From NCBI GenBank assembly GCA_963922205.1, contig CAWUHX010000338.1:124001-188000 (forward strand): 64,000 bases of DNA, read 5' to 3'. The stretch is from Romanomermis culicivorax. Taxonomy: Eukaryota; Nematoda; Enoplea; Mermithida; Mermithidae. Each line of letters opens with the position of its first letter. Within the stretch, counting starts at the first letter, position 1. The position numbers and the translations under genes were made by a program. Positions 6,703 through 24,822 of the stretch are shown here, one piece after another. The notes under the pieces are model-generated. The model was given only the letters and a program-made list of their open reading frames with translations, had not been told where the DNA came from and did not search any database.

Positions 6703-9700
6703 TTATTTCAGTACAACAGTCGCTTTGACCATCACGACGCCTGTGGCATTGATCGTATAATTGAAATTATCTTCGATTTTGGCAAGATGAGGTGTTGATT
6801 CGGGGCCGTCGGCGAAAAGGTCTTCTATTAAATAGCCTTTGGGGTTCGACAGTCCTAATTTCGACCAATTTAATGATACCTTAGCCTGAATGTCATTGAT
6901 GAAAGCGTTTAAGTAGAATAATGATTAAGTGTAATGGTCCACAAAATCTGTATCAGTGGCAACAGCTCCACGATGTATCACGTGAACTCCGTCAAAATAC
7001 TCCACAGTAATCGTGATTTTTATCTTTGTGATTTTTATGTTTTTATGTTTTGGATGATTTTATGCTTTTTTTATTTTTGTTTGAAAAACAGTGATTTCGA
7101 TGTTTTGGGGAAAGGCTAGACAGGTATGAAAAATTTGTCACAACCAGCCAAAAATTTCCGACTGCATCGTCAGAAGTTTTTTTAAAAAAAAAAGTCATTA
7201 CAGAAATTCCATTCAAATTATTATCAAAATTAATGAGATTCAGACCTAGGCCCAGTTTTTCAAAGGGCACATTATAAACAAAGTCACTCTTTCGTGCATA
7301 GTTTGGAAGCGCACTTTTTTCCTATAGTGCCCTTCGAAAAAATCGTATCGTGGTATCCAAGAATCTTACACGCTTGTTGAATATAACGCGTAGGATCTAT
7401 ACTGGAATTCGGACCTGAATCAAAATAAGCTGTCTAAAATACGGTTCATCCAGACCATTTTGAATAAAGGCAACTAATAACTATTTTTGAATTCAAATTT
7501 GAAATCTGTTTATAATGAATGTGATTCAAATTTCGGCATGAACACAAAGTCAAGCCATTTGAATTCAAATTTTTCTGACTAACCAAATGCGAAAATTCAG
7601 ATTGGAGCAGATCAAGTCAAATGTTATTTCACTAGATCAACTCAAAACTCGTGATCTGAAAAACTCGAATCGGATACAACATTTTTTAAAGTCGTGAGAC
7701 TATCACCTATTGGAAACCGATAAATTCCGAATTAAGATTTATAATCCATTTCCAGAATATTTTTGAGATGTTTCGCTCTTATGGGGAAAAGGTTTTGATG
7801 ATACGAATCGGTGTCGGACTCTGGTTATCCGGATTCGATCCCGGATTGAACCTTTGAGGACCTATTCAACTCGACCATATTTGAGGCGCTATGAGTGATT
7901 CAGAATCCAAACCCAGGATACATGTATAATATACCTATTCCAAGAATTGTATGCTCGCATAGACTTTACCCTAAAGGACTGGCATGATCACACCAACTTC
8001 GACAATTGTCAGTGCTGAGAATTAGGGCCCCACCCAGAAGTTCTTTTAACACTGGTGACAGTACCGAGGGTCCTGCTATTGCTCCACGAGGAATGATGTT
8101 GCATGTTCGCATACAAATTCCACCATAAGAACTAATGTTTCTCCAAGTTCACGGGTTCAGGACTCGATGGTTTTTGTTAAACCTTAGTCGGGATGGTCAC
8201 ACAAAGTCGGAAAGTTACAACTGCTGATAATTATGATACCATCCATAAGTCCCTCAAACACCGGTGATCGCACTAAGAAGCCGTCTGTTGCTCAATGAAG
8301 AATGATGTTGTATGTTCGCATACAAATTCTGCTCGAAGAACTGGCAATCCTCGTAGTCCACAAATTTCGGACATGGCCGTTGAGTCCTAGACGAGATGAT
8401 CACACCAGCGACGAAAGTAGTCAGTAATGGAAGCTATGGCATCAACTAGGAGCCCTTCAACACAAGCCCAAATCTGTCTGTACTCCAAAATTAGCTTTAA
8501 ATTACAATCTGGATCCCATTCATATCTGGATTCCAATCCGATCCAGATCAGAAACACGCTAAAAATAGACACTTACTTGCGTATTTTTATTTCTGTTAAA
8601 AAATACAATGGCATAGGAATATTGATCAATTGCCGAATCAAACGGTGTCATCTTCTTTATGTAAATACCGACGTTTGAAGTCTGAAAAAGATAATCCTTA
8701 TGACTAGTTTACATAAACTTGTAGACAAAATCTCACGTTGAACATCAATCTGCCCATAACGCCCAACGGATCTTGATCGACGGCTATAACTTTTTTGTTC
8801 AACAAAATTTTCTTGTGGGCTAAAGGCACGAAGCGTAAATCGTTGGACATGAGTAGCGGGGCCGACCAAATTGACCAAATAGCCATTTGAGCTTTGGATT
8901 GATCGACCGTGATTTCGGGATTTCCGGCGATGATCTATAGAGAGAAAATTGGATCAATCTAAATGAAATTAAGTGAATTTGAAACACACAGTTATGCACC
9001 ATGTCAGGATCATTCCATTGACCAGGACCGTGAACAGGGATCATTTCATCTTGATGTTTGTCGTACCAGTTGATTATGTCTTGTATGGAATCCCATTTGA
9101 GGCTGATGTCTCCGTAGTTGCGCCATAAATTGCAGGCTTTAGCGATAGCGGGATATTTGGGCTGTTTATTGAAAATAGTGTTTATTTTGTTGAACATAGG
9201 TTAAAATCAGATTTAGCGTGCAATCTCCGGGCTATAAGATATGATGTTCCAGATATCAAACTTTCATCCATTTTGGAAATTTACGGTTGGATCAACAGAC
9301 CTGTTATTCTAGCGATGTTGCGTGAATCATGTGACGTTGATAGATTTTGCAATGATAAATTAGAAATAAAAACTTCACCGTCTCTGAAACGTCTACAGCT
9401 AGCATTTCAAAGAATTTGCAGACAATTTTATACTTGCACTCATAGGAAAGGAATTATCAAAAAATTGACACTGAAGCAGCTGTTAGAGAAAGGCAGCTCA
9501 GAGGTTACCGTAGTATATGTGTATGCTATTTTAGCAATACTAACTGCAACATCATGCACACTTTTTTGTATTTTTCAATTGCACGCTATGAAAGCTATTG
9601 ATTGGCAATCCATACTCGAGAAAAAACTTCGAAAAAAGTCGTAAATTTCCTTGAGTCGTGGAATAATATCAGAATACTGATCGATCAGAGAAAAATTATA

Positions 9701-23400: not shown

Positions 23401-24822
23401 GATTTTTAGGTAGGGTCAATTTTTTACTTATCACAACTAAGTTGAACTCTCAGAAATCGTGTCTTAACAAACTTGAACTTACAATTATAGCCTGTCGTGT
23501 TGTACTAAGTCGTTGTAGTCTACTATAGACTGTCTTAAAATTTTTGTTAAATAAAATATTCGAACGTGAGTATTTTCGTCATTTCGTCATTATACATGAA
23601 CTAAAAATTTGATAGTCGAATAACGTCAGTCTACAACAAATTTTTAGAGAAAAAGTTCTGAGTGAAGGATTGGTGTAATTAGAGATATAATTGATTTTTG
23701 ACGGTTCTTACAGTAAGATTTTTCTTTCAAAATATTGTCGAAGGTTACTTAAATATGCTCACAAATGTCTAGTTCTTTGTGACATGAGATTTAGCAAAAA
23801 ACCGTAAAACTGCGGAAAAAAATTTTTTCAACTTTTGTTGAGATTCTTTCAAGAAAAACAGACTTTTCTAAGTAACCCGGTCCGAGATGGGAAATTGAGA
23901 TAGCGCTGAAATTTTTGATTAATTATTGAAAAAAGTAAGATCGCTTGATGAGCTCAGAAACATGAGTGAGAAATCCGCGTTTGCCCATCAAATGAATATT
24001 TGAAAAAACTGTGAGGGAATATTGCTCAGAGGCACGCTTTTCACACATTTGGGAGGCGCAGTAATCTTCAATCAAAAATTCCAGTTGTCAGTCGGAAATG
24101 TGGAACTAACGGTCGACCAAGCCAGGGCTCAATTTGCAATGTGGGCAATATATTCGTCGCCTTTACTAATGTCGACCGATTTGAGATTAATCGACAAGAC
24201 TTTTAAAGACATTTTGTTGAACAGAAAAGTTATCGCCGTCAATCAGGACCCTTTGGGGATCATGGGTCGGCTTGTGGTCAATGTAAGCTTGAAAGTTTGA
24301 TAATTAAGTCATTTTATTACTTGGATAAGTTATTCTGAAATTTTAGCAATCTCGCACTTCACACGTTTCTAATTGATCTGACGCTAGATGCTCATGTCAC
24401 GGGTGTTTTCAAAGTGAAAATTCCATATAGTGCATTTGACAGTCCAAAAAACTGAGCAATATTGCATGGACATTGTTTATAGACCACCAACGTCGCAGTC
24501 TATTTGAAACCAGTAATGCCTTTAAAACGAGATACCAACGACGCGTCATATGCTATTGCAATTCTTAATAGAAATCCGACAGAAATGGTGAAAACTAGAG
24601 AAAATCGTAAAAGATAATATATATAGCTCAATTACACTTTTTTTACAGGCCGACATCGGGTTGAAATCGTTCGAAAGTTTAGGCTTAAAAAATAAGCAAG
24701 GTTACGACGTGGAGGATTTGTATTCGAACAAAGATTACGGTATCATGTTTCCGACAAGCACCTTCAGTACTACGCTAAATCCTACGAGTATTTTGTTGCT
24801 GAAAGCGACCATAATACCATAA
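17465..24822 (+). CDS. GH27 lysosomal hydrolase, alpha-galactosidase A-type paralogue (GLA-like)
   Basis: Seven exons: 17465-17803, 18747-18921, 18978-19075, 19206-19367, 24085-24282, 24483-24587, 24649-24822. Junction phases agree and give 416 residues, close to human NAGA and GLA. The ATG at 17465 opens a signal-peptide-like leader ([19 protein letters not shown]). Landmarks: [61 protein letters not shown] (nucleophile Asp), [21 protein letters not shown] (acid/base Asp), PGGWNDPDM and INQ/VNQDPLG. The Glu in SCEW and bulky Phe three residues on match GLA's Glu203/Leu206, and PNYT matches its glycosylated Asn215 region, so galactose specificity is predicted. Oddities: Gly after the nucleophile is Ala (FDAC instead of FDGC), the usual Asn after the loop Arg is Val (WRV), and the loop is two residues longer than in GLA. 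The catalytic Asps are intact. Intron 4 is 4.7 kb and carries a transposon. Confidence 0.9.
17964..18215. repeat. Short TIR element of the AGTCTGTTTTT family, intron 1 of the GLA-like gene
   Basis: Begins TGTAGTCTGTTTTTTGTAAA-ATGCTTCTAAAT and ends with the inverse (ATTTAGAAACATTTCAAG-AAAAACAGACTATAG). Other copies or arms occur at 41680-42170, 49172-49421, 32590-32625 and around 23520-23865. About 250 bp and without an ORF, as expected for a MITE. Confidence 0.65.
19818..20072. mobile_element. Small element nested in the left transposon arm
   Basis: It interrupts the left arm, as shown by comparison with the right arm. The target is duplicated as TCTACTGCT (19809-19817) and TCTGCTGCT (20073-20081). 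Termini are weakly inverted (CATACATGCA / TGCTATGCATG). The body has C- and G-run blocks (GTAGGGGGAGTAAACCCCC) like the small element at 29796-30020 and the C-rich patch near 47850. Confidence 0.65.
20394..21084. mobile_element. Nested element with TIRs made of GTCGACCGTCCCAGTAT subrepeats
   Basis: It interrupts the left transposon arm between TCTATGTGA (20385-20393) and TTTATGTGA (21085-21093), a 9-bp target duplication with one mismatch. The left end carries at least six tandem copies of a ~16-bp unit around GTCGACCGTCCCAGTAT; the right end carries four in inverse orientation. The interior is AT-rich, non-coding, and contains a telomere-type tract. A 9-bp duplication with subterminal repeats resembles Mutator-like (MULE) elements, but there is no protein to confirm this. 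Confidence 0.75.
20921..20946. repeat. Short telomere-type tract inside the nested element
   Basis: Four consecutive GCCTAA units, the same strand orientation as the array at 5826-6295. Located well inside the nested element, so it was probably mobilised with it. Confidence 0.8.
21370..22573 (-). pseudogene. Broken transposase with C-terminal C2H2 zinc finger
   Basis: Read from 22573 down: [41 protein letters not shown], then after a TGA (22043-22045) a finger [25 protein letters not shown] (about 21970-21895, with one TGA). Next come [20 protein letters not shown] and KFDAEM (about 21750-21615), a TGA/frameshift near 21610, and [15 protein letters not shown] recognise this order (D-W-A-M-K-F block, CxExGC finger, GWALK..F..KQ..., DAE, EFL...IASFWS) from a large group of uncharacterised proteins repeated in cnidarian, mollusc and arthropod genomes. 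The D-W-A-M-K-F block plausibly holds the first acidic residue of an RNase H-fold transposase. The second half of that catalytic domain is missing, so this copy is inactive. Confidence 0.65.

Follow-up and report, generated by a model that had tools for sequence, protein, structure and literature searches.

Human GLA, the Fabry-disease enzyme, and human NAGA, the Schindler-disease enzyme, are both members of GH27. Romanomermis culicivorax is a mermithid of clade I, an early-branching group of nematodes, and a parasite of mosquito larvae. Here we describe two neighbouring GH27 genes, A and B, in a 64,000-nucleotide stretch of its genome (bases 124001-188000 of contig C338; hereafter the window, in whose coordinates positions are given), together with a third gene, C, on another contig. 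All three are regarded as new members of GH27, with A of the NAGA type and B of the GLA type as judged by their residues; B is not claimed as a GLA orthologue.

The closest described systems are the vertebrate enzymes, the GH27 protein of Caenorhabditis elegans, the insect pairs of Drosophila and Anopheles and the GH27 set of Bursaphelenchus xylophilus. In human NAGA, changing S188/A191 to E/L left no detected 4-methylumbelliferyl (4MU)-α-GalNAc activity and raised α-Gal activity 2-5 fold, and earlier reports on the human NAGA swap cited in the same article gave α-Gal gains of ~4.5 and 40 fold (PMC5478728; here and throughout, PMC numbers stand for excerpts of the articles, save PMC3890508, whose main text was covered). 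According to the PDB alignment, entry 3lx9 is GLA carrying the loop SCSWPAY. The rule that these two positions largely decide between galactose and GalNAc, on which a first-pass annotation of the window had relied, thus has a firm basis in the human enzymes, and we extend it to A and B by inference. The authors of the gana-1 study weighed an ancestral single gene against the loss of a GLA partner (PMC548690).

Three GH27 genes and their recognition loops

A and B are divergent neighbours that fill positions 6703-24822, the two ends being the last bases of the stop codons of A and B, respectively. Exon models built by hand gave eight exons for A and seven for B, each gene encoding 416 aa with GT-AG introns and zero internal stops; with frames and splice sites intact, a pseudogene reading of either gene is ruled out. 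Both products match the Pfam family Melibiase_2 far beyond chance (A, 426.5 bits, E = 6.1e-128; B, 423.5 bits, E = 5e-127; cut-off 23), as C does with 437.8 bits. The C-terminal β domain, Melibiase_C, was found in A (24.7 bits) and B (32.6 bits; cut-off 22.9), and no match to it was found in C, which was scanned minus its last exon. Among PDB chains, the best match of A is chicken NAGA (1ktb, 423.9 bits), and B matches chicken NAGA with 405 bits and human GLA with 393.1 bits. The hydrophobic N-termini, judged by eye, run into LDNGL, LENGL or LNNGL, the start of the PDB GLA and NAGA chains. The stop codons, the uninterrupted models and the Pfam matches bear out the head-to-head arrangement of two GH27 paralogues proposed in the first-pass annotation.

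A search of the whole assembly (359,112,060 bases, 595 contigs) with the PF16499 profile gave 16 matches, ten of them on C338 (five in A, five in B) and six on C266, in gene C. Only the best candidates were scored, so the count of at least three GH27 genes is a lower bound. Gene C is dispersed, lying away from the A/B pair. The description of A and B as a pair thus holds for their head-to-head arrangement, but they are not the sole GH27 genes of this nematode.

That the three genes were duplicated recently, or recently underwent gene conversion, is ruled out, because identity at four-fold sites is near chance: 24/74 = 0.32 for A-B (expected 0.28), 20/65 = 0.31 for A-C (expected 0.24) and 13/57 = 0.23 for B-C (expected 0.24). 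The longest nucleotide stretch found identical among A, B and C is 18 nt. Older gene conversion among them could have occurred.

Both recognition motifs were read in the sequence as the first-pass annotation had given them: SCSWPAY in A and SCEWAFY, followed by PNYT, in B. At the positions equivalent to GLA E203/L206, the alignment places Ser/Ala in A, Glu/Phe in B and Ser/Tyr in C, so that the assignment of A to the NAGA type (Ser/Ala) and of B to the GLA type (Glu/bulky) stands. The loop of C reads GCSWPYY, with the Ser retained and the Ala replaced by Tyr. When 13 ligand and catalytic residues of chicken NAGA were compared (site list taken from PMC5445309), A had 13/13, C had 12/13 (the Tyr differs) and B had 11/13 (the Glu and Phe differ), the differences being confined to the two recognition positions. 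The catalytic aspartates, equivalent to GLA D170 and D231, are kept in A, B and C. One proposed likeness did not survive: PNYT, which had been counted among the GLA-like features of B, is not a GLA-specific mark, since VNYT stands at this position in chicken NAGA. The sequon is missing from A (PKYP) and C (PDYK).

We propose that A, B and C belong to an old family of retaining GH27 glycosidases, probably lysosomal or secreted. All three would use the double-displacement mechanism of GH27, in which the D170 equivalent is the nucleophile and the D231 equivalent the acid/base, and the β5-α5 loop would set their specificity. In A, Ser/Ala would leave room for the 2-N-acetyl group; in B, Glu would bind the 2-OH and Phe would fill the acetyl pocket. 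Based on the published residue swaps in the human enzymes, A is predicted to be an α-N-acetylgalactosaminidase with weaker α-galactosidase activity, and B an α-galactosidase that rejects GalNAc. The specificity of C is uncertain.

Compared to GLA, B has F for L206, A for P205 and A for G171 near the site, and its loop is two residues longer. Together with the Tyr at the Ala position of C, these changes could mean that B and C have been neofunctionalised or are losing function, and are not lysosomal α-Gal/α-GalNAc hydrolases. We consider this very unlikely: the catalytic Asp residues are kept in both proteins, as are all of the eight aligned cysteines checked, and both genes have kept open frames despite near-chance identity at their four-fold sites, which points to long selection on B and C.

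Descent of the three genes

On balance we somewhat favour an explanation in which R. culicivorax holds at least three old GH27 genes with loop-set specificity, and in which the duplication separating B from (A,C) was separate from the vertebrate GLA/NAGA split. Six trees were computed under LG+C20+F+G4, with support given as bootstrap/SH-aLRT (Shimodaira-Hasegawa-like approximate likelihood ratio test). Run 1 held 9 rows and run 2 held 19; run 3 was made without the loop; runs 4-6 used complete C, run 5 being limited to the catalytic domain and run 6 to the catalytic domain without the loop. The 16 rows from outside R. culicivorax comprise 3 vertebrate, 2 plant and 11 bacterial rows, the bacterial ones (11/80 loci returned) serving as outgroup only. 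Bacterial GH27 proteins were rejected as animal-like relatives, since 11/11 rows used have a CEWG loop. The bacterial PDB row 4nzj was present in run 1 only and was dropped from run 2 on for its long branch. PDB GH27 chains such as 4ogz, 3a5v, 3lrk, 1szn and 3a21 were left out of all trees, as were two viral-contig GH27 loci with 36-37% identity.

A and C grouped together in all six trees (99-100/96-98), and A, B and C formed a group in all six as well, with support of 92/96, 89/93, 93/95, 91/94, 72/78 and 86/86 in runs 1-6. B is thus placed with A and C in 6/6 best trees and not as sister to GLA. The A+B+C grouping agrees with a shared insertion in domain II (A, 7 residues; B, 7; C, 6) that is absent from 3/3 vertebrate, 2/2 plant and 11/11 bacterial rows. 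Within the group, A and B as closest sisters were rejected by the approximately unbiased test in run 1 (p-AU 0.026), without the loop (0.0198) and in runs 4-5 (0.0104 and 0.007), and were not rejected in run 6 (0.289). Identities in the catalytic domain are 60.3% for A-C, 55.0% for A-B and 59-61% for GLA-NAGA.

Introns were compared with those of human GLA by codon and phase. Positions 124/0, 183/1, 214/0, 268/0 and 334/0 are occupied in all three genes and 65/2 is occupied in C alone, so that C matches 6/6 GLA intron positions and A and B 5/6 each. From these matches, the intron set predates the A/B/C duplications and does not tell GLA apart from NAGA. An additional intron sits at 116/1 in A; another, at ~362-363/0, is present in A and B and is also implied by the last exon of C. 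We take the sixth GLA exon boundary to be c.999; the boundaries c.194, 369, 547, 639 and 801 are supported by variant names (PMC11431720). As evidence of orthology the introns are unusable, because the GLA introns are common to A, B and C.

A different history would be one ancient split, in which B is the GLA orthologue and A and C are NAGA orthologues inherited from the bilaterian ancestor, the GLA branch having been lost in C. elegans. A single change at residue 203 would then suffice, and loss of a GLA partner was left open by the gana-1 authors (PMC548690). In the catalytic domain B is closest to human GLA (57.3%). When the alignment was divided into 15 windows, 8/15 favoured the A+B+C tree and the remaining 7/15 preferred the orthology tree at least slightly, most strongly GLA 193-222 (-6.3 log units, with residue 203 alone giving -4.4); sites 107, 261, 150 and 166 lean the same way. 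Since it is the loop, of all 15 windows, that favours GLA/NAGA orthology most, residue 203 and the Glu/bulky and Ser/Ala loops seem to track presumed function more than descent. With B+GLA constrained, p-AU values in runs 1-6 were 0.11, 0.038, 0.0022, 0.041, 0.094 and 0.0057; the constraint was rejected at 0.05 in 4/6 tests, most clearly in the two from which the functionally loaded loop had been removed (0.0022, 0.0057). The full orthology tree, T2, set against the A+B+C tree in a two-tree comparison under LG+F+G4, was 18.6 log units worse (p-AU 0.041), and its p-AU fell to 0.0034 without the loop and to 0.0009 without the loop and the active-site columns. One ancient split also has to accommodate the domain II insertion common to A, B and C, and we judge it unlikely.

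Alternatively, the Ser-type loop had a single origin, in an ancestor shared by A, C and NAGA, and B and GLA each kept the old Glu separately, without being orthologues. The tests leave room for such an origin: with A+C+NAGA constrained, p-AU in runs 1-6 was 0.173, 0.149, 0.071, 0.166, 0.349 and 0.403, so that this clade is allowed with the catalytic domain (0.35-0.40), where B+GLA without the loop is not (0.0057). Glu is moreover the loop state in 2/2 plant rows, and the bacterial motif is CEWG throughout. The A+C+NAGA clade is found in the best tree of 0/6 runs, however, and a single Ser origin leaves the shared insertion unexplained; we regard it as quite improbable.

Several observations weigh against the explanation favoured here and limit the confidence we place in it. 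The main weakness is the animal sampling, which beyond A, B and C consists of three proteins: human GLA, human NAGA and chicken NAGA. The A+B+C branch was starred by the tree program in 0/6 runs, its lowest support (72/78) being obtained for the catalytic domain with the loop. B+GLA was not rejected in two of the six tests (0.11, 0.094), and A+C+NAGA was rejected in none; seven alignment windows, as described above, lean the other way. GLA and NAGA were not sisters in the best tree of run 1 (p-AU 0.41 when the pair was held together), and in runs 2-6 their grouping received 58/0, 80/26, 33/0, 36/0 and 52/0. GLA intron 1, kept in C and lost in A and B, fits (A,C) poorly unless two losses took place. 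Finally, the changes near the site of B relative to GLA suggest that normal α-Gal activity of this protein is not assured.

Under the duplication separate from the GLA/NAGA split, which we still prefer as the most likely history, B may simply have kept its Glu, since the plant and bacterial rows carry this residue too, and Ser/Ala would have been gained in parallel, neither loop being inherited through GLA/NAGA orthology. The best tree implies separate origins for the Ser loops of A/C and of vertebrate NAGA, or else that Glu was regained twice. The first-pass annotation had spoken of an independent or retained specialisation; the trees and p-AU tests lean to a duplication apart from the vertebrate split. 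We put forward more tentatively, as a suggestion that may well prove wrong, that the α-Gal/α-GalNAc split among animal GH27 paralogues happened more than once. Vertebrates and this nematode lineage would have reached the same loop pair separately, positions 166 and 261 also changing in parallel, C. elegans would later have kept only a Ser/Ala gene, and C, with Ser/Tyr, would represent a third, undescribed pocket type.

Layout of the locus and other features

The features of the three genes are collected in Table 1.

Table 1. Positions of the GH27 genes and associated features (window coordinates unless another contig is named)
Feature	Position	Strand	Basis or remarks
Gene A, GH27, NAGA-type loop	6703..13396	-	Exon model; Melibiase_2 + Melibiase_C; best PDB match chicken NAGA
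Gene A coding exons	13396-13087, 12108-12086, 11615-11441, 11174-11080, 9161-9000, 8934-8737, 8681-8577, 6885-6703	-	416 aa
Gene A recognition loop SCSWPAY	11101..11121	-	Codons TGC AGT TGG CCT GCT for CSWPA; Ser/Ala at GLA 203/206
A-B intergenic space, 4,068 bp between divergent start codons	13397..17464	.	Exon models
Gene B, GH27, GLA-type loop	17465..24822	+	Exon model; Melibiase_2 + Melibiase_C; PDB matches NAGA, GLA
Gene B coding exons	17465-17803, 18747-18921, 18978-19075, 19206-19367, 24085-24282, 24483-24587, 24649-24822	+	416 aa
Gene B recognition loop SCEWAFY	19031..19051	+	Codons TGC GAA TGG GCG TTT for CEWAF; Glu/Phe at GLA 203/206
Gene B PNYT, N-glycosylation sequon at GLA N215 position	19206..19217	+	Sequence, alignment
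Gene B intron, 4.7 kb, mostly nested inverted repeats, mobile-element-like	19368..24084	.	Inverted repeats I1-I5, I8-I15, 80-93% complementary
Gene C, third GH27 gene (locus L009)	C266, 316234 down to ~311200	-	7 modelled exons + open last exon, end not fixed

The space between A and B contains a perfect 58-bp direct repeat (15989-16046 and 16880-16937, 891 bp apart), possibly the ends of a mobile element. In the large intron of B, the outer arms of the palindrome lie within 19455-20393 and 22731-23438; it was named mobile-element-like by eye, and an open reading frame inside it (21917-22042, minus strand) was likewise named zinc-finger-like by eye.

Elsewhere in the window, BACK and BTB domain matches at 28435-28773 and 31357-31794 on the minus strand are probably exons of one BTB-BACK-type gene. 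A Ty3-like capsid/gag match (44530-45516, plus strand) and a reverse transcriptase match (56874-57125, minus strand), both below the Pfam cut-off, are likely retrotransposon remains. Two simple-sequence tracts were seen, one at 5659-6283 that reads RLRLRL on the minus or SLSLSL on the plus strand, and one at 26770-27332 that reads ILYYTILYYT on the minus strand. In the rest of the assembly, a 519-aa COX1 frame in which TGA is read as Trp lies ~1 Mb into contig C117 (992573-993922, minus strand; locus L011) and represents either a nuclear copy of mitochondrial DNA or an assembly join. Further COX1 pieces occur on C129 and on C146, the latter with an adjoining COX2-like frame identified by eye.

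Comparison with described GH27 enzymes

In the literature on R. culicivorax galactosidase, judged by titles and abstract openings, nothing on A, B or C was found, and the word 'galactosidase' is absent from the main text of the 2013 genome paper (PMC3890508). No title on these genes was found in the literature on gana-1, on invertebrate duplication of both enzymes or on Trichinella. With one Glu-type and two Ser-type genes and an old intron set in an early-branching nematode, the ancestral-versus-loss question of gana-1 becomes directly testable. If it is true that the loop pair arose twice, GH27 would offer a clean example of parallel change, affecting two residues already tested for their effect in the human enzymes. 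Gene C, for its part, provides a naturally occurring loop variant that none of the reference enzymes compared here has.

A nematode with more than one GH27 gene is no novelty as such, because Bursaphelenchus xylophilus, of another nematode lineage and likened here by gene number only, has three GH27 proteins; the other counts are 1 in Meloidogyne incognita, 0 in M. hapla and 1 each in C. elegans, Pristionchus pacificus and Brugia malayi (Table 4 of PMC3164644). Drosophila and Anopheles have two-gene pairs annotated as α-GAL and α-NAGA that cluster with GANA-1, outside the vertebrate clades (PMC548690). Compared by this published account only, the insect pairs agree with the pattern of A, B and C.

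GANA-1 of C. elegans (R07B7.11) is a nematode GH27 protein with a Ser/Ala loop (S186/A189), like A (PMC548690). It differs in that one gene is reported for both activities, and the excerpted account reports no Glu-type partner in C. elegans; the single-gene state assumed in the first-pass annotation is in keeping with this one Ser/Ala gene. With human GLA (PDB 1r46) and human and chicken NAGA (3h53 and 1ktb), the genes described here have in common GH27 membership by sequence, all catalytic residues and the loop types (E/bulky in B, S/A in A), and with GLA also the intron positions. They differ from GLA and NAGA in that A, B and C share the domain II insertion and group together, and in the replacement of Leu by Phe and of Pro by Ala in the loop of B.

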